This document shows positions 5,201-22,501 of a stretch of 22,501 nt of DNA, one piece after another. Numbering within the stretch: position 1 is the first letter of the stretch; each line of letters opens with the position of its first letter. Source of the DNA: a virus; the IMG/VR virus record IMGVR_UViG_3300028844_001946, positions 1-22,501 of that record, one strand, 5' to 3'. The notes beneath the pieces are model-generated. The model saw only the letters and a list, made by a program, of their open reading frames with translations, was not told where the DNA came from and searched no databases. The translations under genes were made by a program, and so were the position numbers.

Positions 5201-5482
5201 TACATTAACACTTGGCGTAGAAGAATATTGACTTGCTCCAGAAGTAACTAAATTAGTATCGGTACTCCAAGCGTGTATGTTTTTCGACGCCCACGAAGGG
5301 AAATCTGCTGATATATCTAAGGTAGATGCAGATTCTTGCGTTGGAACACCTTGCAATGTTCCCACACCATCTGATACGAAATTGTTACATTCTTGTAATT
5401 GATTATTCTTTAATCTTTCAGCAGAGTACCCTTTGACTACTCCACCACTAAAATCATTAATCGTTTCGACTAATTTAGCCAC
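2288..5482 (-). CDS. Large tail nozzle / packaged-DNA stabilisation-like protein, 1064 aa
   Basis: The largest gene in the window, starting at GTG 5482 with GGAGG 11 bases upstream inside the end of the metallophosphoesterase gene (8-base overlap). The N-terminus (residues about 8-50) has the pattern of phage proteins that form the distal portal-tail ring: a short FSGG segment, then CNNFVSDGVGTLQG, comparable to the opening of tail-nozzle and stabilisation proteins. The C-terminal part (about 845-1000) looks like beta-propeller blades: GDEVTCLRVAGNKLCQFKEN, then HCGVSGDNQVTSTPYGIMW, then SRSGLWIYNG, the strand-turn units seen in T7 gp12 and P22 gp10-like nozzles. At 1064 aa it is clearly longer than P22 gp10 (about 470) or T7 gp12 (about 800). 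Residues about 60-830 would be inserted beta-rich domains rich in Ser, Thr, Asn and Asp. A tail nozzle is the best call; a receptor-binding function for the insertions is possible. Confidence 0.72.
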   Translation of the reverse strand: MAKLVETINDFSGGVVKGYSAERLKNNQLQECNNFVSDGVGTLQGVPTQESASTLDISADFPSWASKNIHAWSTDTNLVTSGASQYSSTPSVNVVDASIRARVIFYMSMMDSDSDGRVTLVDTLREGSVPVFSNYLASTNYIFDKNGGHPNRIHGLSVKIWEREIHANNTNTTHSYKTDHINWVWNTHAEMESFIGAEGSSRFGVSFNDVEPTSPPDHSNNYDDFNWTQTNSGDNSTPDSNYNSGNYMITAIKASEFYDTTWPGPDTTFQPYVYRSMMTFDHYGTVSMHLHVYGNEERMAPSSGNLTINSQSIPRKNLNSSSRQSNNMGGQTFKFLHTDVEEDYSTFGVQLGQYSKWAYNFEINSPTNTATYTLSIDLYTNVAQTTKTTVTATIDSELGQSALNISISLVNQLVQKVQDTLPQHSINIERIDSRTMHIFQDENTPTAYGFEDLTSTVTNASSANIGDLTSGQSFQNLIAISNLNTQTSIYSIENDNWLDYSIDLRSNTSQALDCKLNYTDAEGYLKVSDADFHAGTQPKWFGYLNLNNHVYLDNTFTADGEFYASELSPVPYISTPSSGVHNGDYSHHVSKKNNLFRTQEVNDDIFPVHCNSTGGDAPQHTGLKLVVDFIDGTHASHSKMDGLFMKDEVIEFYYTYTYYGGAISEPQAFKNNAGNTISFKPGDDNASLGLMVKMGAKMITGDGTGLHNTRLKSIEIWGRFTKYDSVNIYQLAELDLIKGWKSSATGVWKNFFTAQNNGIQAYTTGNPNTTSGSAKDYIIYKAFPPISFFSKYGIKWDNPIGWGQGSGWKTACVFNRRAYYGNVRIKNKDGTLTYFPDGIVKSPVGMYDSVSIDNLIEATINDGDEVTCLRVAGNKLCQFKENSLTIMGVKTLENGQSTEIIEQTINHCGVSGDNQVTSTPYGIMWVSRSGLWIYNGTEVRKLTENLEGSTISKQNWENYYTARTHIGYDAYWNQAHICQDTQNNPKTLIYNFNTRGFSESDKLYASTQKTGFVNNPEGHLLWAQHGTGTGSQSQDNNSNNPQGKDKSVAQEQFDATNWEPNYSQ

Positions 5483-6236
5483 GTATTAATTTTCCTCCGT
5501 AAGAAGTGACACCATTAACAATGTCAAGTGCCATAAGGTTGAAATTGTTATTAGAATATATATCAACCAATCCCACATTATGACTCCAGTTAGTAGGTCT
5601 TCCACGTAAATAGTCTTTGTTCATATCTGCTAAGCATCCCATTGAATATGCCATATGGGCTCCTTGGATGTGCGTGACGACACTTTTTTGGGAGTCGTGA
5701 GTGTGCCCATAGATGACGTTGCATCCCATTTGTAAGGCGTGAGTTCTTGCATGGGCAATTCCCATGTAGTGTCCTCCGTGATAAGCGTATAACTTGCTTC
5801 CGAAAACTTTAATGAGTTTACCATAGTCAGCCCACTTATATCCACGCTCCTTGAATTTAAAGGCTTTTTTTGAATGGTAATCTTCGAGGTAGGGGTTTTC
5901 GTCAACGAAATAGTCGAACCACTTTTCGTGATTTCCTTGGGTAAATGCTTTTTTTGTACATCCCACTTTGTCCAACGCTTCATCAATTCTATCGAGCCCT
6001 GTATTACCTTGCTTAATCTCTTCGTCAATGAAAGGTAATTGGTATTCCAACGGAGGACGCTTTTTCTTTCGCCATTGCCAGTGACTGACGGATTCGCCAT
6101 CAACTGTATCTCCTAATAATAAAAATGCTGTTGGTTCTATTTCTGCTATTACGTTTAAAGCACATTTAAATGCCTTCTCATCGTGATTTGGAAAGTGGAT
6201 GTCTGGAAAGACTACCACTCTTTCTTTTATATGCAT
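5475..6236 (-). CDS. Calcineurin-like metallophosphoesterase, 253 aa
   Basis: All signature blocks of the calcineurin-like metallophosphoesterase superfamily are present in order: PDIH (D12, H14), GDTVDG (D43), GNHE (residues 101-104, N102 and H103), the HGGH block (H153), and GHTHD (H178 and H180). Length (253 aa) is normal for a stand-alone enzyme. These residues should bind two metal ions and hydrolyse phosphomonoesters or phosphodiesters in the cytosol; the substrate cannot be told, and nucleic acid, nucleotide or phosphoprotein are all possible. The start ATG 6236 has GAGGA 6 bases upstream. The final codons contain the ribosome site of the nozzle gene, so the two are co-expressed. An enzyme of this kind inside a late structural operon is notable. 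There is no signal peptide. Confidence 0.9.
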   Translation of the reverse strand: MHIKERVVVFPDIHFPNHDEKAFKCALNVIAEIEPTAFLLLGDTVDGESVSHWQWRKKKRPPLEYQLPFIDEEIKQGNTGLDRIDEALDKVGCTKKAFTQGNHEKWFDYFVDENPYLEDYHSKKAFKFKERGYKWADYGKLIKVFGSKLYAYHGGHYMGIAHARTHALQMGCNVIYGHTHDSQKSVVTHIQGAHMAYSMGCLADMNKDYLRGRPTNWSHNVGLVDIYSNNNFNLMALDIVNGVTSYGGKLIRG

Positions 6237-6260: not shown

Positions 6261-6659
6261 TTAATCCAGTATTTCAAAATGTACTAAGTCGTCAAAATTA
6301 TTATCTTTAGTAGTACGTTGCTCTTGTTTTAGCGAAGAAGACGACCAGTCTCCTCCCCAACGAACATTATAGCCTAATTGAGATGCGATACCCAAGACGA
6401 AACCACCCAAATAATGAAAATCATCACGTGCATCCCAATCAATAGGATAAGGGCAAATGTCAACAGCCCTCCCAGCAACGTGCTTTCCAAATTTAGTTTT
6501 GCTTTTGCCTTGCTCCACAAGTTCATCTTGTCTCTTCTGGCTACGTAACCCTTCAATTACTGTAATGTCAAAGTATTTACAAACTTCATGCAAGAGGTCA
6601 ACCAATCTAGGGTCAACACCTTTAAGTCTTGATTTACTACGTTTACCTAATCTAGGCAT
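6261..6659 (-). CDS. M15-family zinc endopeptidase, probable endolysin, 132 aa
   Basis: A compact L-alanyl-D-glutamate peptidase-like protein of the M15 family (VanY / phage T5 endolysin type). It shows GLRSQKRQ (residues 37-44), then the metal-binding block KHVAGRAVD with H60 and D67, then WGGDW (101-105), and finally DLVHFEI with the catalytic acid D124 and third zinc ligand H127. The spacing of seven residues H60 to D67 and three from D124 to H127 equals that of T5 endolysin (H66/D73 and D130/H133). It should cut the peptide stem of Gram-negative peptidoglycan. No signal sequence is present, so export must come from a holin among the membrane proteins just upstream. The ATG follows the previous stop directly (TAAATG) with AAGGA about 10 bases upstream. 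Confidence 0.92.
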   Translation of the reverse strand: MPRLGKRSKSRLKGVDPRLVDLLHEVCKYFDITVIEGLRSQKRQDELVEQGKSKTKFGKHVAGRAVDICPYPIDWDARDDFHYLGGFVLGIASQLGYNVRWGGDWSSSSLKQEQRTTKDNNFDDLVHFEILD

Positions 6660-8101: not shown

Positions 8102-8920
8102 CTACGATTTAACTGCGAATTGGTATTTAGTACCTTTCCATTCAATCTGAGCATTTCCTTTGCTTACTGAAAATGATTTTATATCAGAAAGATGACTGTT
8201 ACCATCTGAGCCATTTGTACCATTTGTACCATTCGCTCCAGCACTTCCTGTTGCCCCTGTATTTCCAGTATCCCCTTTATCTCCTTTGGCTCCAGCACTT
8301 CCTGTAGGGCCCTGTGGCCCAGTAGCACCAGTATCTCCCTTAGCCCCAGCAGAGCCATTTGAACCATTCGTTCCAGGGTCACCTTTATCACCTTTTGCAC
8401 CAGCACTTCCAGTTGCCCCAGTATCACCTTTATCTCCCTTTGCTCCAGCAGAACCATTTATACCATTTGTCCCAGAATCACCTTTGGGGCCTTGGGGGCC
8501 TGTATTACCAGTATCGCCTTTGTCGCCTTTTGCCCCAGGAGAACCATTTGAACCATTGCTACCAGCACTTCCTGTACTACCTTTTGCACCAGTAGCACCT
8601 TGTGGCCCAGTGGGGCCAGTTGCACCAGTGGCACCTTTTGCCCCAGTGGCTCCTTGTGATGACCATTGTTCTGATTCAGCAGAACCAAAAGCATTAAATA
8701 CCATTTTATACATATGATGGACATCATCATGTAGTTTATTAAGGTCACCTCTTAATTCTTCTATAACATCAATTAGGTTATTTGAAATAGGGTCTTCAGT
8801 AGATGACATTATAGTATCATCTGCTTTGTACATATGAGCCAATTTAGCCTTAGTTTTATAAGTCGTTGGCTTACTGGTTAGGTTTAATAAGTTTGAGTTT
8901 GTTAATTTTTCTTTTGCCAT
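8102..8920 (-). CDS. Collagen-like phage fibre/head-decoration protein, 272 aa
   Basis: Three parts can be seen. Residues 1-89 form a helical N-terminal region ([20 protein letters not shown] is a good trimerisation or attachment coiled coil). Residues 90-240 are an uninterrupted Gly-X-Y series of 50 triplets, with many KGD, TGA, TGP and NGS units. Residues 241-272 are a small beta-type cap ([15 protein letters not shown], ending KYQFAVKS). Such collagen-like segments are common in phage fibres and should form a rigid triple helix between a virion-bound base and a distal knob. The gene starts at ATG 8920, immediately after the fibre stop at 8922-8924, with only a weak Shine-Dalgarno. The triplets lack hydroxyproline-type PP units and use Thr and charged pairs instead, typical of bacterial and phage collagens. 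Confidence 0.85.
8201..8653 (-). repeat. Collagen Gly-X-Y coding repeat tract (50 triplets)
   Basis: The coding DNA for residues 90-240 of the collagen-like protein is made of 9-base units with Gly at every third codon and no interruption. Longer higher-order units recur (for example the block [13 protein letters not shown] occurs several times with small variants), which indicates growth by in-frame slippage or unequal recombination. The tract is a likely place for length differences between related phages. On the plus strand it also yields spurious Pro-rich frames. Confidence 0.9.
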
Positions 8921-13887: not shown

Positions 13888-15195
13888 TTAAGCCACATCA
13901 ATTAAGAAGTGAGATTCAACTAAAGAGATTCCTACGCCTTCATCAGACATATATTGGTCTTTAACACCATCATAGTCTGGAGCCTGGATAGAAGCCTGGA
14001 ACTGAGGCTTTCTATACTGAGCGTGGAAGAGGTTTTCGTCACTAACAATCAACATTGTGTTGTTGTAAGGGCCTCTTAACGCTGGAGTTGGAATCATCTG
14101 GATAGCACCATGAGGTGTTTCAAGAACTCTGTAGTTAAAACCAAGAGCGTCTCTCTTCATATCACCTATGTTTACTGTCCAACCAGAATCACCAGCAAAT
14201 CCAGCAGAGCCAGATAACTTAGACCAATGTCCAAGTGCACCAGCACCTACAAAAGCACGTTTCATACCAGCCTCTGGAACATACTGGAATACTCTTTCCA
14301 TTACGTCTACGAATTTGGAATATGTGGAAACGTCTGCTGAAGCATAGTGATTTTTATAATCACCAACTAAACCAGACCTTTTAATTGCTGGAATAATTCC
14401 CATGGTAGTACGAACTGTGTTAGCACTAGCAGTTTCATCGTGAATTGCTTCAGCATCAGCAAATCCAGCAAGTCCAGACCAGTTCTCGCCAAACAAGAAT
14501 GCTCTTTCTTTCTGAATTTTATGCTCTTGTGATTTCATGTCACGTAGTCTAGCCAATTCCTTAGATTCTCCACGTAAAGAAGCCTGTAACAAAGTTCCAG
14601 TTACTTCTACTGGTGTTTTGAAAATCTGACATTGGTTGAAGACAACGCCTAAGTCATCACTCCAAGACTGTGGTGAGTTTGTACCTTCACCATGTGCTGA
14701 ACCAATTACCATTGCATAGTCAGTGACTTTAACATCTATTCCAGTTGCTTTAGGTGCTAATAACTTAAAGTTAATTTTATCACCAGTTGCATTGTAGTTA
14801 GTTATTAATGCTCTAAACTTAGGAGCATGAGCAGAAGAGTAAACTTCTATTTCAAGTCCTATTAAGTTTGCACCAATTCCAATGCCTTCTGCTCCGTCAA
14901 CTGCTACGTCATTAGACTTAGCGTCTTTACCTGGCATATCACCAGTAGCGATTACAGTTTTAAGATTAAACTTCTGTTTTACCCAAGGGTTTCTATGTTC
15001 AAACATTTTGAAAGTAGGGTCACTTAGTCCAGACATTGTGCTTTGGTTCGCAATAACTGTAGTGAAAGGAGTTACATCAGTCCAAAGTTCTTTAACAACG
15101 TTTGGGCGAATGTAGAAATCCCTTCTATCAGTATAGAGAACACCACTTGAGCCTAGATTTTTAGAGCCTATTGCTCTTGTATCTCCGTCAGCCAT
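13888..15195 (-). CDS. Major capsid protein, 435 aa
   Basis: Assigned as the major capsid (coat) protein from position (right after portal and scaffold), length (435 aa; P22 coat is 430), strong AGGAGA ribosome site and an even, globular composition. The N-terminal arm (residues 1-30) is charged and flexible, followed by KELWTDVTPFTTVIANQST (35-53), which resembles the start of the HK97-fold core. Helical region ELARLRDMKSQEHKIQKERA (about 213-232) would be the long spine helix, and ALGFNYRVLETPHGAIQMI is a strand region near the C-terminus. No specific Pfam family could be named by eye. It is preceded by a 21-base gap after scaffold and followed by a hairpin, fitting high expression. Confidence 0.82.
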   Translation of the reverse strand: MADGDTRAIGSKNLGSSGVLYTDRRDFYIRPNVVKELWTDVTPFTTVIANQSTMSGLSDPTFKMFEHRNPWVKQKFNLKTVIATGDMPGKDAKSNDVAVDGAEGIGIGANLIGLEIEVYSSAHAPKFRALITNYNATGDKINFKLLAPKATGIDVKVTDYAMVIGSAHGEGTNSPQSWSDDLGVVFNQCQIFKTPVEVTGTLLQASLRGESKELARLRDMKSQEHKIQKERAFLFGENWSGLAGFADAEAIHDETASANTVRTTMGIIPAIKRSGLVGDYKNHYASADVSTYSKFVDVMERVFQYVPEAGMKRAFVGAGALGHWSKLSGSAGFAGDSGWTVNIGDMKRDALGFNYRVLETPHGAIQMIPTPALRGPYNNTMLIVSDENLFHAQYRKPQFQASIQAPDYDGVKDQYMSDEGVGISLVESHFLIDVA

Positions 15196-16132: not shown

Positions 16133-18334
16133 CTAATTGACAGCAACTGGGTTTATTTGTTGACTGTTGATTTCCCTGTTTTCTTCTTTGACCTTGCCTA
16201 GTTCATCATTCAATCTCGCTTCGTACAATTGACTTGCCTTCTGCGTTTTATTGGCTGAATCCGTTAACTTGGTCTTGAATTTTTCTATTTCCACACGTTT
16301 CCTATCTGATACCGATTCTCTTTGAGCAGTTTGTAAGTCACCCTCAAGGTTCTTAATTTGCTCTTCTTGTTGCTGGACTTGAGATTGTAATTGTGCAATA
16401 ATACTCGTCCGTTTAAGAACACCTTCTGTATCTGCCACTTCGGTCTGTTCAAGTACTTCTTGTTGGTCAATGATTCCCTTTTCATATAGGTTCATGTAAT
16501 AATCAAATCGTGCCCATCTATTGGATGGCAATGTGGAGCCACTAACAACGATAAGGTCGTATTGACCTATAGTTACATCGTTTATTCTGCCCAGTACTTC
16601 TCCAGTAAAATCATCGTACATGGGTTCATTCATTGTGGTTTCAGATGTTGTACCATCTGGCTTCATAAGTCTTATTACTTTTTCGTCTGTGTAGGTTTGT
16701 TGGATTAACTTGACAACTACTTTTCCCATTTGGTTTAACATAGCATCAATGTCATCTAACTTTGATTTAATTCTTCTTTGGGCATATTCATCAATGGCTA
16801 CTGTTCCTTTGTATGTTTGAGGAGCAGAACCTGGGTCTCCTTGAGACAACGGATGAATGCCTAGTATGTGATAGATACTGCTTTTAGCATCTTCTCTATT
16901 TTTATATAATTCATTTGGCAGAGGAACTGGCCCAGCAACGATAGGTTGTCCTAGTTCGGGGTCATATTCAATAACACCAGTACCAGCACGTGACCACTCT
17001 TGTTCGAGTTGTTGTCTATTCATAGAGCCACGAGGTATTAGTAGTTTTGTATTAGTCGAAGAACTGGCGTGAGCAATGATAAGAGAGGTTATCTTATTTA
17101 TATATTCTTGGATGGGCTTAATGAATCGCACATCACTCATTGGATATGGATTCCTATTATGCCTATTCATTAGCGTGACTATGGGATATTCATCAATATC
17201 CATAATCTGTTGTGCTAATAAAGCCCTTCCAACAGAAAGCACACGTTTTATTCTATCTACTAGTACCTTGTTGCAAACAACAATTTCCTCTGCCACTAAT
17301 TGTTCAAAATTCATTTGAGTAAGTTTCGTGGTACTTCCTTCAACAGCCTCTGGCGTTTCTTCACCTGGCTGTGGATATGGTTGCCCTGTCTGAGGGTCTT
17401 GCATCATATGGAAGGTATCACCGAACTGTTGCATCATGCCCATTAGTTCTTGAACTTTTTCTATATCCGTAACAAAAGCAACACCAGCCTGTGTTTCTAC
17501 CATCATTGCTGGTTTCTGTAAGAACTCTTCATATTTATCGTCAGCATGAATGTATTCGTTTCCATTCGTTGTGTCTACACAATGCCAGAATGGTAATTGA
17601 ATTTTTTCATATCTGTCGATTACTTGATAGTTCCTATTGTCTGTTGTATCTCCATCCACTGGGCCCACAATTGTATCTGTTTCACTTGTACGTGATTCGT
17701 GTGGGTATCTATCATTGGATGATTGAGTCATAGAAGAAAAGAGAGTGTTCCCTTCTTCATCTGGTTGCATTACTTGTGGATAGGCATTCTGTACTTGCTC
17801 CTCCGTTAGCGTTTTGGAAATCATTATGTTACTTGCATCTCTGCAAAAAGTGTCCCTAGATGCTGGGTCAATAAACAAATCAAATGGGTCTACTGCTTTA
17901 AAACAGACTTCGCCTCTTCCGAAATCCATCATAGGGTCTACATAAGCAACCATAGCCCCCATCCCTTTTACGTAGTAATCATCTATAACTTGTTTTAATT
18001 CTGATGTGCCTGTTGATATATCCCAGATGTAGGACATAATATCTGAAAAGACTCTTCCTACTTTTGTGTCACTATCATCTCTTCCAGTAGACTGGAACTT
18101 TGGTTTATTTGCAGTAAGTAATGCTTTTGCTTGTTCTACTGCTGGATGAATGACATTGTCAATAATAGGAGACTGAGCCCTATCTTTTAATGTTTTAGTT
18201 TGTTCAGCAGTCCATTGACTGTTATTTCTGAACTCGTCGTCCTCCATTGCTTGAGTAGCCCACTCAACTCTCTGAGCGTGGTAATCTTCTAGAAGGTCTT
18301 CGCTTTTTTGAACTTCGGGATGTGTTATAGGCAT
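16133..18334 (-). CDS. P22-type portal protein, 733 aa
   Basis: The 733-aa protein has the size and layout of P22-like portals (P22 gp1, 725 aa). Typical points include the N-terminal NSQWTAEQTKTLKDRAQSP and IIDNVIHPAVEQAKALLTAN (about 37-76), followed by the AVDPFDLFIDPASRD clamp region (about 146-160), a central wing with MNRHNRNPYPMSDVRFIKP (about 388-406), and a long helical C-terminus from about 625 on (LQSQVQQQEEQIKNLEGDLQ), the equivalent of the P22 helical barrel. Twelve copies should form the vertex ring for DNA entry and exit. It starts at ATG 18334 without a convincing Shine-Dalgarno, 46 bases after the large terminase stop, an unusually weak start for such a gene. It ends 22 bases before the scaffold start. 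Confidence 0.9.
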   Translation of the reverse strand: MPITHPEVQKSEDLLEDYHAQRVEWATQAMEDDEFRNNSQWTAEQTKTLKDRAQSPIIDNVIHPAVEQAKALLTANKPKFQSTGRDDSDTKVGRVFSDIMSYIWDISTGTSELKQVIDDYYVKGMGAMVAYVDPMMDFGRGEVCFKAVDPFDLFIDPASRDTFCRDASNIMISKTLTEEQVQNAYPQVMQPDEEGNTLFSSMTQSSNDRYPHESRTSETDTIVGPVDGDTTDNRNYQVIDRYEKIQLPFWHCVDTTNGNEYIHADDKYEEFLQKPAMMVETQAGVAFVTDIEKVQELMGMMQQFGDTFHMMQDPQTGQPYPQPGEETPEAVEGSTTKLTQMNFEQLVAEEIVVCNKVLVDRIKRVLSVGRALLAQQIMDIDEYPIVTLMNRHNRNPYPMSDVRFIKPIQEYINKITSLIIAHASSSTNTKLLIPRGSMNRQQLEQEWSRAGTGVIEYDPELGQPIVAGPVPLPNELYKNREDAKSSIYHILGIHPLSQGDPGSAPQTYKGTVAIDEYAQRRIKSKLDDIDAMLNQMGKVVVKLIQQTYTDEKVIRLMKPDGTTSETTMNEPMYDDFTGEVLGRINDVTIGQYDLIVVSGSTLPSNRWARFDYYMNLYEKGIIDQQEVLEQTEVADTEGVLKRTSIIAQLQSQVQQQEEQIKNLEGDLQTAQRESVSDRKRVEIEKFKTKLTDSANKTQKASQLYEARLNDELGKVKEENREINSQQINPVAVN

Positions 18335-18380: not shown

Positions 18381-19871
18381 CTAAACAGTCATCCAGTCCA
18401 CCATTCGTTTAAACCCACCAGATTTATGTGATTGAGTCTGATTTTCCATTGTATCATGCATTGCACCATAGCATCCTTTGTTTGCATAAAAGAATCCATC
18501 CAATAAATCATCATGCTTTCCTCTTGGAAACAGCAATAATTCATTTATAAAGTCTTCCATTTCCTTTTTTACCATATGCACATTGCCTCTAGCAAATAGA
18601 GGTTGTAATGATTCTAGTCTTCGTGACTTACTTGTTCTGGGATTTTCTTTAATCTGCAATCCAGGAATGAATAAGTTTTCTTGCTCACAGCGTTTAATAA
18701 CATATTCACGTAACATTTCTTGATACCCAACACTTTCTATCCGTGTCTTGGTAGAACGATACTTACGGAAATTATCTACAATGGCTTCGGCTAGATTAAG
18801 AGGCGTTGCTCTTTTTCTGTAGTATGGCAATACATAGCGATTGCCTTCTTCATCTACTCCAATATTGAAGATAACACTAAAGTCAGCAGTCTGCTTTGTA
18901 CTGGATGCTGGGTCAACCCCAGTAAATATATTAATAGGGATTTGTTTCTTTTCTGGAAAGGTCATCTCTAAAAAGGCTTCTTTTGCATCATTTAACCAGA
19001 CAGTACCTTTGTAAAACCGAAAATCATCAGCCCGAAAGAGTTGGTCTTCGTCTCCTACTATTTCACACATATACTCTCTGTAGAATACGGAGAGCCTATT
19101 AATGGATTCTAATTCTTTTTTCTTTTCCAGTAGTTTTTCAATCGACCACCAATCTTCCCATAATGCCTTTCCGTTATCTATGTCTGGTTTATATTCTAAA
19201 TTAACCCACCCATGCATTTCTTTTAACGTTTCTACCATGCAACGTTCATGCTGGGGTGTTCCAATAACAATAACTCTTCCTTTTCTCGGGTCTACAGAAG
19301 GCACTGCTGATTGAAGTAACCAGCGAAGATTCGACTCCATAGCCTCTGATGTCTTTGTATTGTTTTCATCTTCTGGGTCGTCAATGATAATAAGCGTGGG
19401 TCTTTGGTTCCCTATCTTTATTCCTCGTAACTGTTGGCCAGTTCCCTTGCAAATTATCATTGACCCATCTTTTAATTCTATTTCTGCTTTCGCCCAACTT
19501 TTAGCAGAGTGGCTTCCCCAGTATCCAAACAGCTGTCTAAACGATTCGCTAAAGTCCAGTGTATCTTTGATTAGACCTAGCAGTTTCACAGCATGGTCTT
19601 GTGTTCTGGACGACAACACAATAAGTTTCTTTCCTTCTCCAAACATCAAATGGTGCATAGGAAGAATGCCTCCCACAATAGAAGACTTGGCATGACCACG
19701 TGGAGCAATAATGTTTATCTGTTTGTTCCCTAAATTGGATACGTGCTTAGATAAATCGTAATGAAAGTCTGGCGATTTTGCAGAAAACATATTGGGAATA
19801 CAAACTTTCCCAAACAACATCATGTCTCCTTTTAACTTCTGTAAGACTTCTTTCTGTTCTCGTTTATCCAT
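18381..19871 (-). CDS. terL: Terminase large subunit, 496 aa
   Basis: The motor and nuclease for genome packaging. ATPase domain: Walker A-like APRGHAKS (56-63, K62), Walker B LIIIDDPED (160-168, with D164-D165 and E167), coupling motif GTP (204-206). Nuclease domain: GVDPASS (318-324, D320), IES (378-380, E379), and HDDLLDGF (453-460) with the last acidic pair, an RNase H-like metal site. Length is normal. It should join the portal during packaging. The variant P-loop (PRGHAKS rather than GKT) is common in phage terminases of this type. Start ATG 19871, AAAGG 9 bases upstream; overlaps the TTG-started membrane protein by 8 bases. Confidence 0.96.
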   Translation of the reverse strand: MDKREQKEVLQKLKGDMMLFGKVCIPNMFSAKSPDFHYDLSKHVSNLGNKQINIIAPRGHAKSSIVGGILPMHHLMFGEGKKLIVLSSRTQDHAVKLLGLIKDTLDFSESFRQLFGYWGSHSAKSWAKAEIELKDGSMIICKGTGQQLRGIKIGNQRPTLIIIDDPEDENNTKTSEAMESNLRWLLQSAVPSVDPRKGRVIVIGTPQHERCMVETLKEMHGWVNLEYKPDIDNGKALWEDWWSIEKLLEKKKELESINRLSVFYREYMCEIVGDEDQLFRADDFRFYKGTVWLNDAKEAFLEMTFPEKKQIPINIFTGVDPASSTKQTADFSVIFNIGVDEEGNRYVLPYYRKRATPLNLAEAIVDNFRKYRSTKTRIESVGYQEMLREYVIKRCEQENLFIPGLQIKENPRTSKSRRLESLQPLFARGNVHMVKKEMEDFINELLLFPRGKHDDLLDGFFYANKGCYGAMHDTMENQTQSHKSGGFKRMVDWMTV

Positions 19872-21048: not shown

Positions 21049-21266
21049 GGTTTTGGCTCTACGTACTCATATCGAGAGTGTTCGTAACACCAATTATCCT
21101 CATTTAATATAAAATTCTTATAGGTATGCTTTGTACTGTCTTGGTCTAGCAACCATATCTCTTTAATTCCTTGTGTATCTTTATTTACTTCATATCCTAA
21201 GACTGTCCAGCCAGTACAATCCTTCATTAGCGTAAGACTAAGAAGTAAAAACCCCATTATTTTCAT
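21024..21266 (-). CDS. 80-aa protein with signal-like hydrophobic N-terminus
   Basis: An 80-aa protein with a short hydrophobic start (MKIMGFLLLSLTLMKDCTGW, residues 1-20) that looks like a signal peptide with a weak N-region, and a polar, Trp/Tyr/Glu-rich remainder containing C60 that could pair with C17. There is no proper lipobox before C17. It might be exported, for example a surface or superinfection-exclusion factor, but this is speculation. ATG 21266 has AAGGA about 12 bases upstream; the frame overlaps the nuclease-like gene by 29 bases and the small terminase candidate by 25. A start at the second Met (21257) is possible. Confidence 0.55.
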   Translation of the reverse strand: MKIMGFLLLSLTLMKDCTGWTVLGYEVNKDTQGIKEIWLLDQDSTKHTYKNFILNEDNWCYEHSRYEYVEPKPWISSQEN

Positions 21267-21765
21267 GTTGCGTGTGATTCCTTTTTATTTTGTTAACAAA
21301 TGCTTTTGTATACCTCAATTCCTTCACTGTCCAATTGTTAACTTCGGAGTAACTCGCTAAATAATGACTAGCCTTATGATTATCTTCTAGTTTCACAAAC
21401 CAATAGAACTCACACTTCTTTTTTTCATTCAAGTGGGCTTTATAATTCACATATAAGTCGTATGTATTAGGCTTTACTGCCTTCACATCCATCTTAATGC
21501 CATCAATGGTAATATCTGGTTCTGGTAATGGTTGAGTATCTACAATTAATGCAGACTCAAAGGGTATGTTATTTTCAATTAAAAAATTTTGTGCTACGAG
21601 TTCCCCAAGGATACCAAGATAACTTATAGTGTTCTCCTGTTTCCCCCTGTACCCCTCACTTCCTACGGAATATACATCGGCTGATAACTTCGTTCTGAGT
21701 TGAGCCATCTCACTTGCAACACGTTCCAGTATTGCTGGGTATTGTTGTGTCCCTTTAAAAATCAA
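21238..21765 (-). CDS. PD-(D/E)XK nuclease-like protein, 175 aa
   Basis: The core residues of a PD-(D/E)XK nuclease fit well: an acidic helix residue E55 in GILGELVAQNFL, then PEPDITIDG with D84, and KMDVKAV with D93 and K95, that is D-X8-D-X-K, the spacing of the fold. A helix before (residues 45-62) and two strands after are in the correct order. It should cut DNA, maybe structure- or sequence-specifically; there is no DNA-binding domain besides the core. The open frame begins at TTG 21765; an ATG at 21708 would remove 19 residues and leave all core residues, and the start is therefore uncertain. It is the first gene after the dyad-rich region and just before the packaging genes. Target unknown (own DNA processing or host DNA degradation). 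Confidence 0.75.
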   Translation of the reverse strand: MIFKGTQQYPAILERVASEMAQLRTKLSADVYSVGSEGYRGKQENTISYLGILGELVAQNFLIENNIPFESALIVDTQPLPEPDITIDGIKMDVKAVKPNTYDLYVNYKAHLNEKKKCEFYWFVKLEDNHKASHYLASYSEVNNWTVKELRYTKAFVNKIKRNHTQHENNGVFTS

Positions 21766-21784
21766 TTCGGGCCCTTAGTACTAC

Positions 21785-21853
21785 TACTGTAATGTATACT
21801 AAAATACTGTTTAACATTACTGTATGTAAACACTACAGTGTATACATTACTGT
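21785..21853. promoter_or_regulatory. Operator-like dyad and direct-repeat cluster
   Basis: In a 127-base gap ahead of the nuclease-like gene lie repeated TACTGT words (at 21785, 21805, 21818 and 21848), a perfect 10-base direct repeat ACATTACTGT (21814 and 21844, exactly 30 bp apart, about three turns), an 11-bp inverted repeat GTAATGTATAC (21789-21799) with GTATACATTAC (21840-21850), and ACTGTA (21819-21824) with TACAGT (21834-21839). This looks like a multi-site operator for a repressor or activator. A minus-strand TTTACA (21825-21830) with TATTTT 18 bases on is the best promoter guess and lies within it. It is not a strict SOS box (spacing of CTGT and ACAG is 11, not 8). Confidence 0.6.
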
Positions 21854-21877
21854 TAAAAAGCATCCGTTGTACCCATG

Positions 21878-21916
21878 TTGTCAAGTCTTTTTTTAGTCAT
21901 ATTGACAAATATTTGT
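21878..21916. promoter_or_regulatory. Second dyad pair next to the operator cluster
   Basis: TTGTCAA (21878-21884) and TTGACAA (21902-21908) form a perfect 7-bp inverted repeat with 17 bases between, and ACAAATATTTGT (21905-21916) is a perfect 12-bp palindrome overlapping the right arm. The left arm read on the minus strand is TTGACA, a consensus -35 box, but no good -10 stands 16-18 bases downstream of it. Overlaps the end of the 58-aa gene. Confidence 0.5.
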
Positions 21917-22069
21917 ATAATCTTCTTCACGGATAATATCCATGCGTTCATAAATCATCGCTTCAGATTCGGCAATCTTTAATATAATAAACATCTTCTC
22001 AAACTCGTCATCACTCAAGTCTACTATCTCAAACTTTTGCGTCTCTTTGTTCCATCGTTCAACTTTCAT
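21893..22069 (-). CDS. 58-aa acidic protein, first minus-strand gene
   Basis: A 59-codon frame from ATG 22069, the first minus-strand gene on the left of the divergent region. The product is acidic and helical (EIVDLSDDEFEKMFIILKIA, about residues 14-33, then YERMDIIREEDY), with no cysteine motif besides one Cys near the end and no membrane span. No classical Shine-Dalgarno is present; the leader is short and CCCC-rich before the ATG. It lies before the operator cluster, so it may be transcribed separately from the structural operon, for instance as a small regulator or anti-factor. Function unknown. Confidence 0.65.
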   Translation of the reverse strand: MKVERWNKETQKFEIVDLSDDEFEKMFIILKIAESEAMIYERMDIIREEDYTNICQYD

Positions 22070-22124
22070 GGGGTAATACTAACACTCTTGTAGGGGGGTG
22101 TCTCAAGTGGGGAAAATCTTCAAA

Positions 22125-22158
22125 ATTATATTTAGAGTGCGTGTGAGTGATATATAGT
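22125..22158. promoter_or_regulatory. Back-to-back promoter-like boxes in divergent gap
   Basis: On the minus strand a perfect TATAAT (22125-22130) lies 56 bases before the ATG of the 58-aa gene, but its -35 region is poor. On the plus strand TATAGT (22153-22158, 5 of 6 bases of consensus) has TTTAGA (22131-22136, 4 of 6) at a 16-base spacing, pointing towards the GC-richer gene. The arrangement fits a divergent promoter pair for sigma-70-type polymerase, tentative by eye. Confidence 0.45.
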
Positions 22159-22164
22159 GTAACC

Positions 22165-22193
22165 ACCCCCACCCTGTTCGGGTCATGGGGGGT
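22165..22193 (+). other. GC-rich bulged stem-loop in plus-strand leader
   Basis: ACCCCC (22165-22170) can pair with GGGGGT (22188-22193), and the inner ACCC (22171-22174) with GGGT (22180-22183), leaving a 5-base loop and a 4-base bulge on one side. No U-run follows, so it is not an obvious terminator; it would sit in the 5' leader of the plus-strand gene if the promoter at 22131-22158 is used. It may protect the mRNA or control translation. Confidence 0.5.
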
Positions 22194-22205
22194 CACTTTC
22201 TCGTT

Positions 22206-22229
22206 GAAACATTTCGTTCCTCATGTTTC
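22206..22229 (+). other. Second leader stem-loop
   Basis: GAAACAT (22206-22212) and ATGTTTC (22223-22229) are perfect complements with a 10-base loop. A third, smaller stem ACCC-TCAA-GGGT is at 22267-22278, 17 bases before the plus-strand start codon. Together with the GC-rich stem-loop they make an unusually structured 130-base leader. Confidence 0.45.
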
Positions 22230-22294
22230 CCCTCGGTGCAGTTGCTCACAAGTGTCCCCATCTCTGACCCTCAAGGGTTCCCTTGCTGTGACCG

Positions 22295-22501
22295 ATGTCT
22301 ATGACCGTCAGAATCTCTGGCGAGGATAGTCGTGGCAAACGTAGTTTGCTTAACGACGCTCCTCTTGCCGAGTACTCTGCTGACGAAGTCCAGACAATGG
22401 TTGACTCCAGCATCTCTGTGTCCATCTTTCTTAAAGATGAGACCAGGGCTGATGAAGCCAAGTCCATTGTCAGCGACTTCTTTGGTCACTACAAAGGCGA
22501 C
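22295..22501 (+). CDS. Partial plus-strand gene, different base composition (C-terminus off right edge)
   Basis: An open plus-strand frame of 69 codons reaching the window edge. ATG 22295 is the first possible ATG because a TGA lies just upstream (22289-22291); ATG 22301 is the alternative. The third codon positions favour C and T (gac, gtc, atc, ggc, tcc), and the DNA is visibly more GC-rich than the rest of the window. The product starts MSMTVRISGEDSRGKRS, then DEVQTMVDSSISVSIFLKDE, and is charged and soluble-looking. I recognise no family. No Shine-Dalgarno is evident. It probably opens the other (early or replication) arm of the phage. It could also be one member of an exported or highly expressed gene set with a separate history. 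Minus-strand frames across the same bases are shadows. Confidence 0.65.
   Translation, partial: MSMTVRISGEDSRGKRSLLNDAPLAEYSADEVQTMVDSSISVSIFLKDETRADEAKSIVSDFFGHYKGD

Follow-up and report, generated by a model that had tools for sequence, protein, structure and literature searches.

Hairpins for single-strand initiation are a feature of plasmid and phage origins. The genome of phage N4 has three promoters for the virion RNA polymerase (RNAP); their hairpins are short, located at -17 to -5 and closed by a loop of 3 nt, and bases that are not conserved have no role there beyond maintaining the hairpin (PMC4496689). That a two-barrel virion RNAP can have its own motif is known from phage P23-45, where an AT-rich sequence marks about 14 starts; the passages describing it mention no hairpin (PMC10770324). 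A folded element of another kind is putL of the temperate phage HK022, which lies directly after PL; put functions as RNA, is composed of two stem-loops and acts on the host RNAP (PMC9378689).

The window analyzed here, from an uncultured marine phage, is the whole of a linear virus fragment from IMG/VR, 22,501 bases in length. Its structural arm is read leftward from the p58-like gene, and the first gene of a rightward arm is cut by the end of the contig (Table 1). Positions 22070–22294, which a preliminary description had singled out as a GC-rich divergent control region, are exactly the gap between p58 and the plus-strand gene starting at 22295, and this is, as had been claimed, the only divergent junction in the window among the likely coding ORFs. 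The GC content is 0.476 in 22001–22500 against about 0.37 around it, and the reported G-runs (22092–22097 and 22187–22192) and C-run (22166–22170) are present. The first gene of the rightward arm specifies about 103 aa in relative L114. It possesses no Pfam or PHROG match, and its product gave a confident model (pLDDT 92.6), yet no significant fold match.

Several other features of the left side deserve mention. Between p58 and p175 (21770–21862) short repeats are clustered, some direct and some inverted (ACTGTAATGTATAC / GTATACATTACTGT, and ACATTACTGT twice), in what looks like an operator array. By eye p175 itself (21238–21765, minus strand) resembles a PD-(D/E)xK nuclease (GELVAQNFL ... PDITIDGIKMDVKAV), with no Pfam match. 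The structural arm also includes a collagen-like Gly-x-y repeat protein (8102–8920, minus strand), whose coding stretch is richer in GC than any other in the window. Inspection further suggests a calcineurin-like phosphoesterase (5475–6236, minus strand) and an M15-type peptidase, probably the endolysin (6261–6659, minus strand).

Table 1. Coordinates of features in the window and in related contigs (positions refer to the window unless a contig or accession is given)
Feature	Position	Strand	Remarks
SU10-type major capsid protein	13888–15195	-	structural arm
P22-type portal	16133–18334	-	structural arm
Terminase large subunit	18381–19871	-	structural arm
p58-like gene, first of structural arm	21893–22069	-	homologue with AExxI motif beside the element in almost all relatives
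Leftward -10-like TAGTATT, weak	22073–22082 (TAGTATT about 22074–22080)	-	sequence inspection; a few bases upstream of the p58 ATG
AAAAwT tract	22122–22127	+	-11 to -6 relative to TAGA; AAAA 97–100% conserved
Core block TAGAGTGCGTGTGAGTGATATATAG	22133–22157	+	consensus TAGAaTGnGtGtGnGtGATATAyrg; one copy per contig
C-run CCACCCCC	22163–22170	+	consensus CyACCCCC
Hairpin 5' arm	22171–22198	+	ACCCT, bulged G22176, GGGTCA, TGGGG, TCACTT; position fixed, sequence varies between lineages
CGTTGA motif	22202–22207	+	GTTGA begins 70 nt after TAGA in the window
Hairpin 3' arm	22250–22278	+	AAGTG, CCCCA, TGACCC, AGGGT; complementary to 22171–22198
CCCTTG	22280–22285	+	recurrent CCCT(T/C/G)G motif directly after the 3' arm
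First gene of rightward arm	22295–22501	+	69 aa visible, cut by contig end
Giant DxDGD protein	L082:689–10165	+	
Giant DxDGD protein	L089:7088–17212	+	
Giant DxDGD protein	L086:4071–13595	-	
Giant DxDGD protein	L088:5052–14441	-	
Giant DxDxD protein (DLDID)	L215:9015–17792	+	
L209 / L214 / L215	JAHISV010000010.1, about 92–138 kb		probable prophage next to tRNA-Ser(gct)

Relatives were gathered from IMG/VR by a search with the large terminase subunit (TerL), which yielded 459 stretches, and by a scan with an exact pattern, which yielded at least 119, nearly all of those listed showing the whole layout. The two sets of loci have contigs in common, and among the matches listed 78 sequences were left at <85% identity. 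The preliminary description had proposed a comparison of the leader in related phages, and at least 78 non-redundant relatives share a composite element in the same layout; its TAGAaTGnGtGtGnGtGATATAy block is present in nearly every TerL locus which reaches the junction. Conservation at the positions required by the pattern comes partly from the selection of hits; the AAAAwT tract, the C-run, GTTGA and the spacings lie outside the pattern. Among 28 whole contigs (14–89 kb) 27 were positive at up to three mismatches with one convincing site each, additional matches being overlapping or clearly degenerate, and a reversed-pattern control gave almost no matches in the same contigs.

Across the 78 sequences the order is AAAAwT, TAGAaTGnGtGtGnGtGATATAy, C-run and GTTGA. 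Relative to TAGA (0–3), AAAA occupies -11 to -8 and T -6; G is found at 6, 8, 10, 12, 14 and 16, ATATAy at 17–22 and CyACCCCC at 30–37, and about 28 variable positions separate the C-run from GTTGA. The distance from TAGA to GTTGA is 68–70 nt in 171 of 172 loci among the matches listed. The exception, L139, is without the rest of the element too and is probably a chance match to the pattern. Some members have further copies of GTTGA at 81–82 and 86–88 nt. No covariation beyond phylogeny was detected within the rigid module. The element, its fixed spacing and its single copy are solid, computed observations, and so are the pairing of the arms, the lack of a G.U signature and the polymerase fold in relatives described below.

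The ATG of the p58 homologue usually lies 53–70 nt from TAGA. On the other side the neighbor is a gene for a small protein of several unrelated families, the element remaining constant while the family changes, and by a simple test a Shine-Dalgarno sequence precedes this gene in 119 of 176 loci. Six contigs (L008, L009, L034, L055, L080 and L158) end inside the element, about 24–65 nt after TAGA.

The preliminary description had proposed a possible shared promoter, probably choosing between the two arms of the genome, and had pointed to back-to-back -10-like boxes. Both boxes exist, TATATAG at 22151–22157 on the plus strand and the weak TAGTATT on the minus strand, but sigma-70-like matches at the junction are no commoner than in shuffled sequence (10 found against 8.0 ± 3.0 expected). 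Terminator-like matches near the gap are likewise at the level of shuffles, and folding of the window as a single sequence was not significant (z -1.75 as DNA, -1.10 as RNA); the evidence first offered was therefore insufficient by itself. What exceeds chance is the conservation, across dozens of lineages, of the promoter-like block, of the 68–70 nt to GTTGA and of the covarying arms. Ordinary divergent early promoters for host sigma-70 RNAP, with repressor operators nearby and a structure of no special meaning, would suit the temperate genes (integrase, HTH proteins) and the operator-like repeats at 21770–21862. However, the match count equals that of shuffles, and no -35 hexamer is found 16–18 nt from the -10 in the conserved block. 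To judge from its sequence the TATA block is not sigma-70-like, its conservation being far above the sigma-70 level. Since such promoters would also leave the fixed GTTGA spacing and the covarying arms described below without a reason, we regard them as very unlikely to be the explanation.

Three stem-loops had been described in the gap. They do appear in the single-sequence DNA fold, but they are not kept in relatives; what is conserved is one long imperfect hairpin (Table 1). Counted from GTTGA, the segment between -32 and about -6 pairs with a downstream strand at a variable distance of about 25–200 nt, with arms of about 20–27 nt which include bulges, and a loop of about 27–200 nt. With dinucleotide shuffles of the same downstream stretch as the null, arm pairing reached p<=0.05 in 45 of the 78 sequences versus 3/78 for a control arm. 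In the alignment of the window clade 88.9% of the cells pair, both partners have changed in 8 of 11 pairs, and the covariation of 0.366 (0.104 ± 0.031 after shuffling) was reached by 0/500 shuffles; sliding the partner by one column reduces pairing to 43–47%. A second clade, from which inner loops were removed by hand before alignment, is concordant (0.181 versus 0.061). The compensatory base changes proposed as a check in the preliminary description are thus found in both clades.

Bulges in the 5' arm are clustered at -27/-26, and the 3' arm has a 2-nt insert at -15/-14. Conserved bulges at fixed places speak against an origin of the hairpin by template switching alone. An invertible element and an operator dyad were ruled out because the arm sequences differ between lineages, and a pseudoknot between the C-run and the G-run, seen in a few members, was dropped since distant members have no G-run. 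Inserts of roughly 100–200 nt downstream of GTTGA, between the arms, occur in L007, L018, L056, L059, L068, L069, L074 and L081. Within them are further inverted repeats, long and nearly perfect (17 bp in L018), from which it seems that the hairpin may have expanded repeatedly. Words of the type TACTGTA/ACAGTA, akin to the repeats at 21770–21862, are seen in the hairpin inserts of L056, L062, L069 and L081.

Does the hairpin act as DNA or as RNA? The 45 significant sequences contain 906 Watson-Crick pairs and 80 mismatches (9 G.U, 16 A.C and 55 other), with G.U and A.C scored alike. G.U amounts to 1.0% of pairs and is rarer than A.C, and the spread of mismatches is that of random expectation. 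In duplexes computed with RNA energies the share of G.U is 4.0% for the plus strand and 3.8% for the minus strand. By comparison, the tRNA stems of two putative host MAGs, counted in much the same manner, have 39 G.U in 454 pairs (8.6%) and no A.C; Fisher values against these stems (4e-12 and 4e-9) are inexact, the sequences being related and the tRNA register having been chosen to maximize pairing. As G.U is not tolerated, selection would seem to be on a DNA hairpin rather than on an RNA leader. By these figures the target of selection would be DNA, or else transcripts from both strands, and not a rightward RNA alone. The scarcity of G.U and the strand symmetry favor a hairpin acting as DNA and are not proof of it.

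The suggestion that the leader might be a regulatory RNA, made in the preliminary description, is weakened, although the compensatory changes speak for it. Stated fully, the right operon would have a structured 5' leader RNA, either a put-like antiterminator or a translational regulator, with its promoter at the TATA block. The hairpin is indeed just downstream of the promoter-like block and mostly upstream of the Shine-Dalgarno sequence and ATG, RNA folding of single members yields the conserved long hairpin, and HK022 putL in its position directly after PL (PMC9378689) offers a parallel. Against this stand the rarity of G.U and the absence of any Rfam match above the gathering threshold for the window or 20 relatives, where there were weak matches at most. 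The several unrelated families downstream also disfavor autoregulation by the gene product. We consider an RNA leader unlikely.

A hairpin of Watson-Crick pairs only, in single copy at the point of divergence, would also befit an origin of replication, in which an AT-rich unwinding stretch (ATATATA and AAAAwT) and an initiator module would be joined to a DNA hairpin for loading primase, read by the DnaB-like helicase/primase which the phages encode. The extra GTTGA copies in some members speak for it too. Nevertheless, neither an iteron array nor a known initiator was found, and the C-run, the promoter-like spacing and the adjacent start of the downstream gene fit transcription equally well, so that an origin appears to us distinctly unlikely. 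A site for DNA packaging or a genome end is highly improbable: the element is about 2.2 kb upstream of terL, and a few contigs, those named above, end inside the hairpin, but long contigs run through the element to end elsewhere, and strain variation downstream of the conserved block breaks assemblies too.

Relatives of the window possess, at the end of the structural arm, a gene for a giant protein of 2,925–3,374 aa with the motif RVPANAISGTR...GADVDGDK. The catalytic DxDGD / DxDxD motif is present as DVDGD in four of five giants and as DLDID in the probable prophage L215 (Table 1). No meaningful Pfam, PHROG or PDB sequence match was obtained. The AlphaFold model of the core (921 residues, pLDDT 79.5, pTM 0.76), however, retrieved with Foldseek the virion RNAP of the crAss-like phage φ14:2 (E 1.4e-8, prob 1.00; 6vr4), followed by QDE-1 (2.1e-7) and, further down the list, P23-45 gp96; the alignment is limited to the core of the predicted model (TM 0.35 to 6vr4). 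On the strength of this model the giant proteins are apparently an undescribed family of virion RNA polymerases in temperate phages.

Most of the contigs returned by a scan of IMG/VR for the giant protein were ones in which the element had been found before. A profile detects it in 17/24 element contigs, including very distant clades and most contigs of >=29 kb. The misses are mostly short contigs, and also G008 (57 kb) and G003 (33 kb). Together with G044, the chance match to the pattern, these are the three element-pattern contigs of at least 33 kb with no polymerase match; the chance match (L139, without GTTGA) lacks the giant protein. Because element and polymerase belong to one lineage, finding them together gives weak support for a functional link. 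The contig of the window stops short of any giant gene, the polymerase being known from relatives alone, and the window protein 1–471 showed no match to the protein which precedes the giant.

The relatives are temperate phages (integrase, HTH proteins) whose contigs of about 40–50 kb comprise the structural arm and a divergent arm; the latter specifies Sak annealing, DnaB-like helicase/primase, RusA-like resolvase, ParB-like, ArdC-like and integrase proteins. In these contigs no T7-type RNAP or sigma match was found; with PF00940 (single-subunit T7-type RNAP) the control genomes were likewise without a match. L209 belongs to a Bacteroidetes MAG, in which its contig of 142 kb has the phage genes flanked left and right by bacterial ones and adjoined by a tRNA-Ser; one relative at least is therefore probably a Bacteroidetes prophage. 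No att repeats of 15 nt or more were detected in the stretches compared. The element of L244 is identical to that of L209 and hence adds nothing independent. The best matches of TerL among 50,697 phage records were <60% and about 25% identical, which indicates an uncultured group; it is abundant and, by these comparisons, has no close relative among those records.

A rigid signal followed by a hairpin, once per genome and alongside a giant RNAP of the injected type, is probably the start site of that enzyme. The explanation which we prefer, and hold with about as much doubt as belief, is that the element is a single-copy composite DNA promoter at which the injected virion RNAP starts the rightward, early arm. 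The giant polymerase would enter the cell together with the phage DNA and recognize the rigid AAAAwT / TAGAaTGnGtGtGnGtGATATAy / C-run / GTTGA module. A DNA hairpin folded from the two arms of the inverted repeat would help to load or position the enzyme, and transcription would proceed into the right arm, which in relatives carries Sak, DnaB-like helicase, RusA-like, ParB-like and integrase genes. We infer promoter function, the match of polymerase to site and the role of the hairpin; a rightward direction is suggested by the position of the module, which is upstream of both the hairpin and the right gene, and by the early-type genes on that side. The loop of about 27–200 nt, which would be hard to extrude from duplex DNA, argues against this promoter, as does the single site where N4 and P23-45 have several.

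The proposed promoter resembles those of N4 in being of few copies beside early genes, in the giant virion-injected polymerase postulated for it and in an inverted repeat which is kept while its bases vary. Unlike the short stem and 3-nt loop of N4, the arms are about 20–27 nt and bulged and enclose a long loop of variable size; ahead of the hairpin is a sequence block of 24 nt. The N4 enzyme is T7-like whereas the polymerase of the relatives is of the two-barrel type, and there is one site in place of the three in N4 and about fourteen in P23-45. With φ14:2 gp66 and P23-45 gp96 (PDB 6vr4 and 8h2n) the relatives share a giant DxDGD protein, the predicted core of which matches 6vr4 and QDE-1, and the location of its gene at the end of the structural arm, but there is no detectable sequence similarity. 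As in HK022, a folded element directly follows what may be an early promoter of a temperate phage; in contrast to the two stem-loops of put RNA acting on host RNAP (PMC9378689), it is one long conserved hairpin without the G.U signature of RNA. The likeness to the hairpins of single-strand initiation lies in a hairpin, here probably of DNA, which occurs in single copy beside a helicase/primase replicon; no initiator binding repeats were found here.

In the papers considered here, little is documented on where crAss-like phages and their kin have the start sites of their giant two-barrel virion polymerases. A single candidate site, strongly conserved, fixed in its spacing and with a hairpin of DNA type, provides an exact sequence for testing in vitro, and the element may serve to recognize members of this abundant group of uncultured phages. 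More doubtful is the broader proposition that a two-barrel (QDE-1/crAss-type) virion RNAP might depend upon a single DNA-hairpin promoter per genome, a solution independent of the T7-like one of N4, in an uncultured temperate group of which at least one member is probably a prophage of Bacteroidetes.
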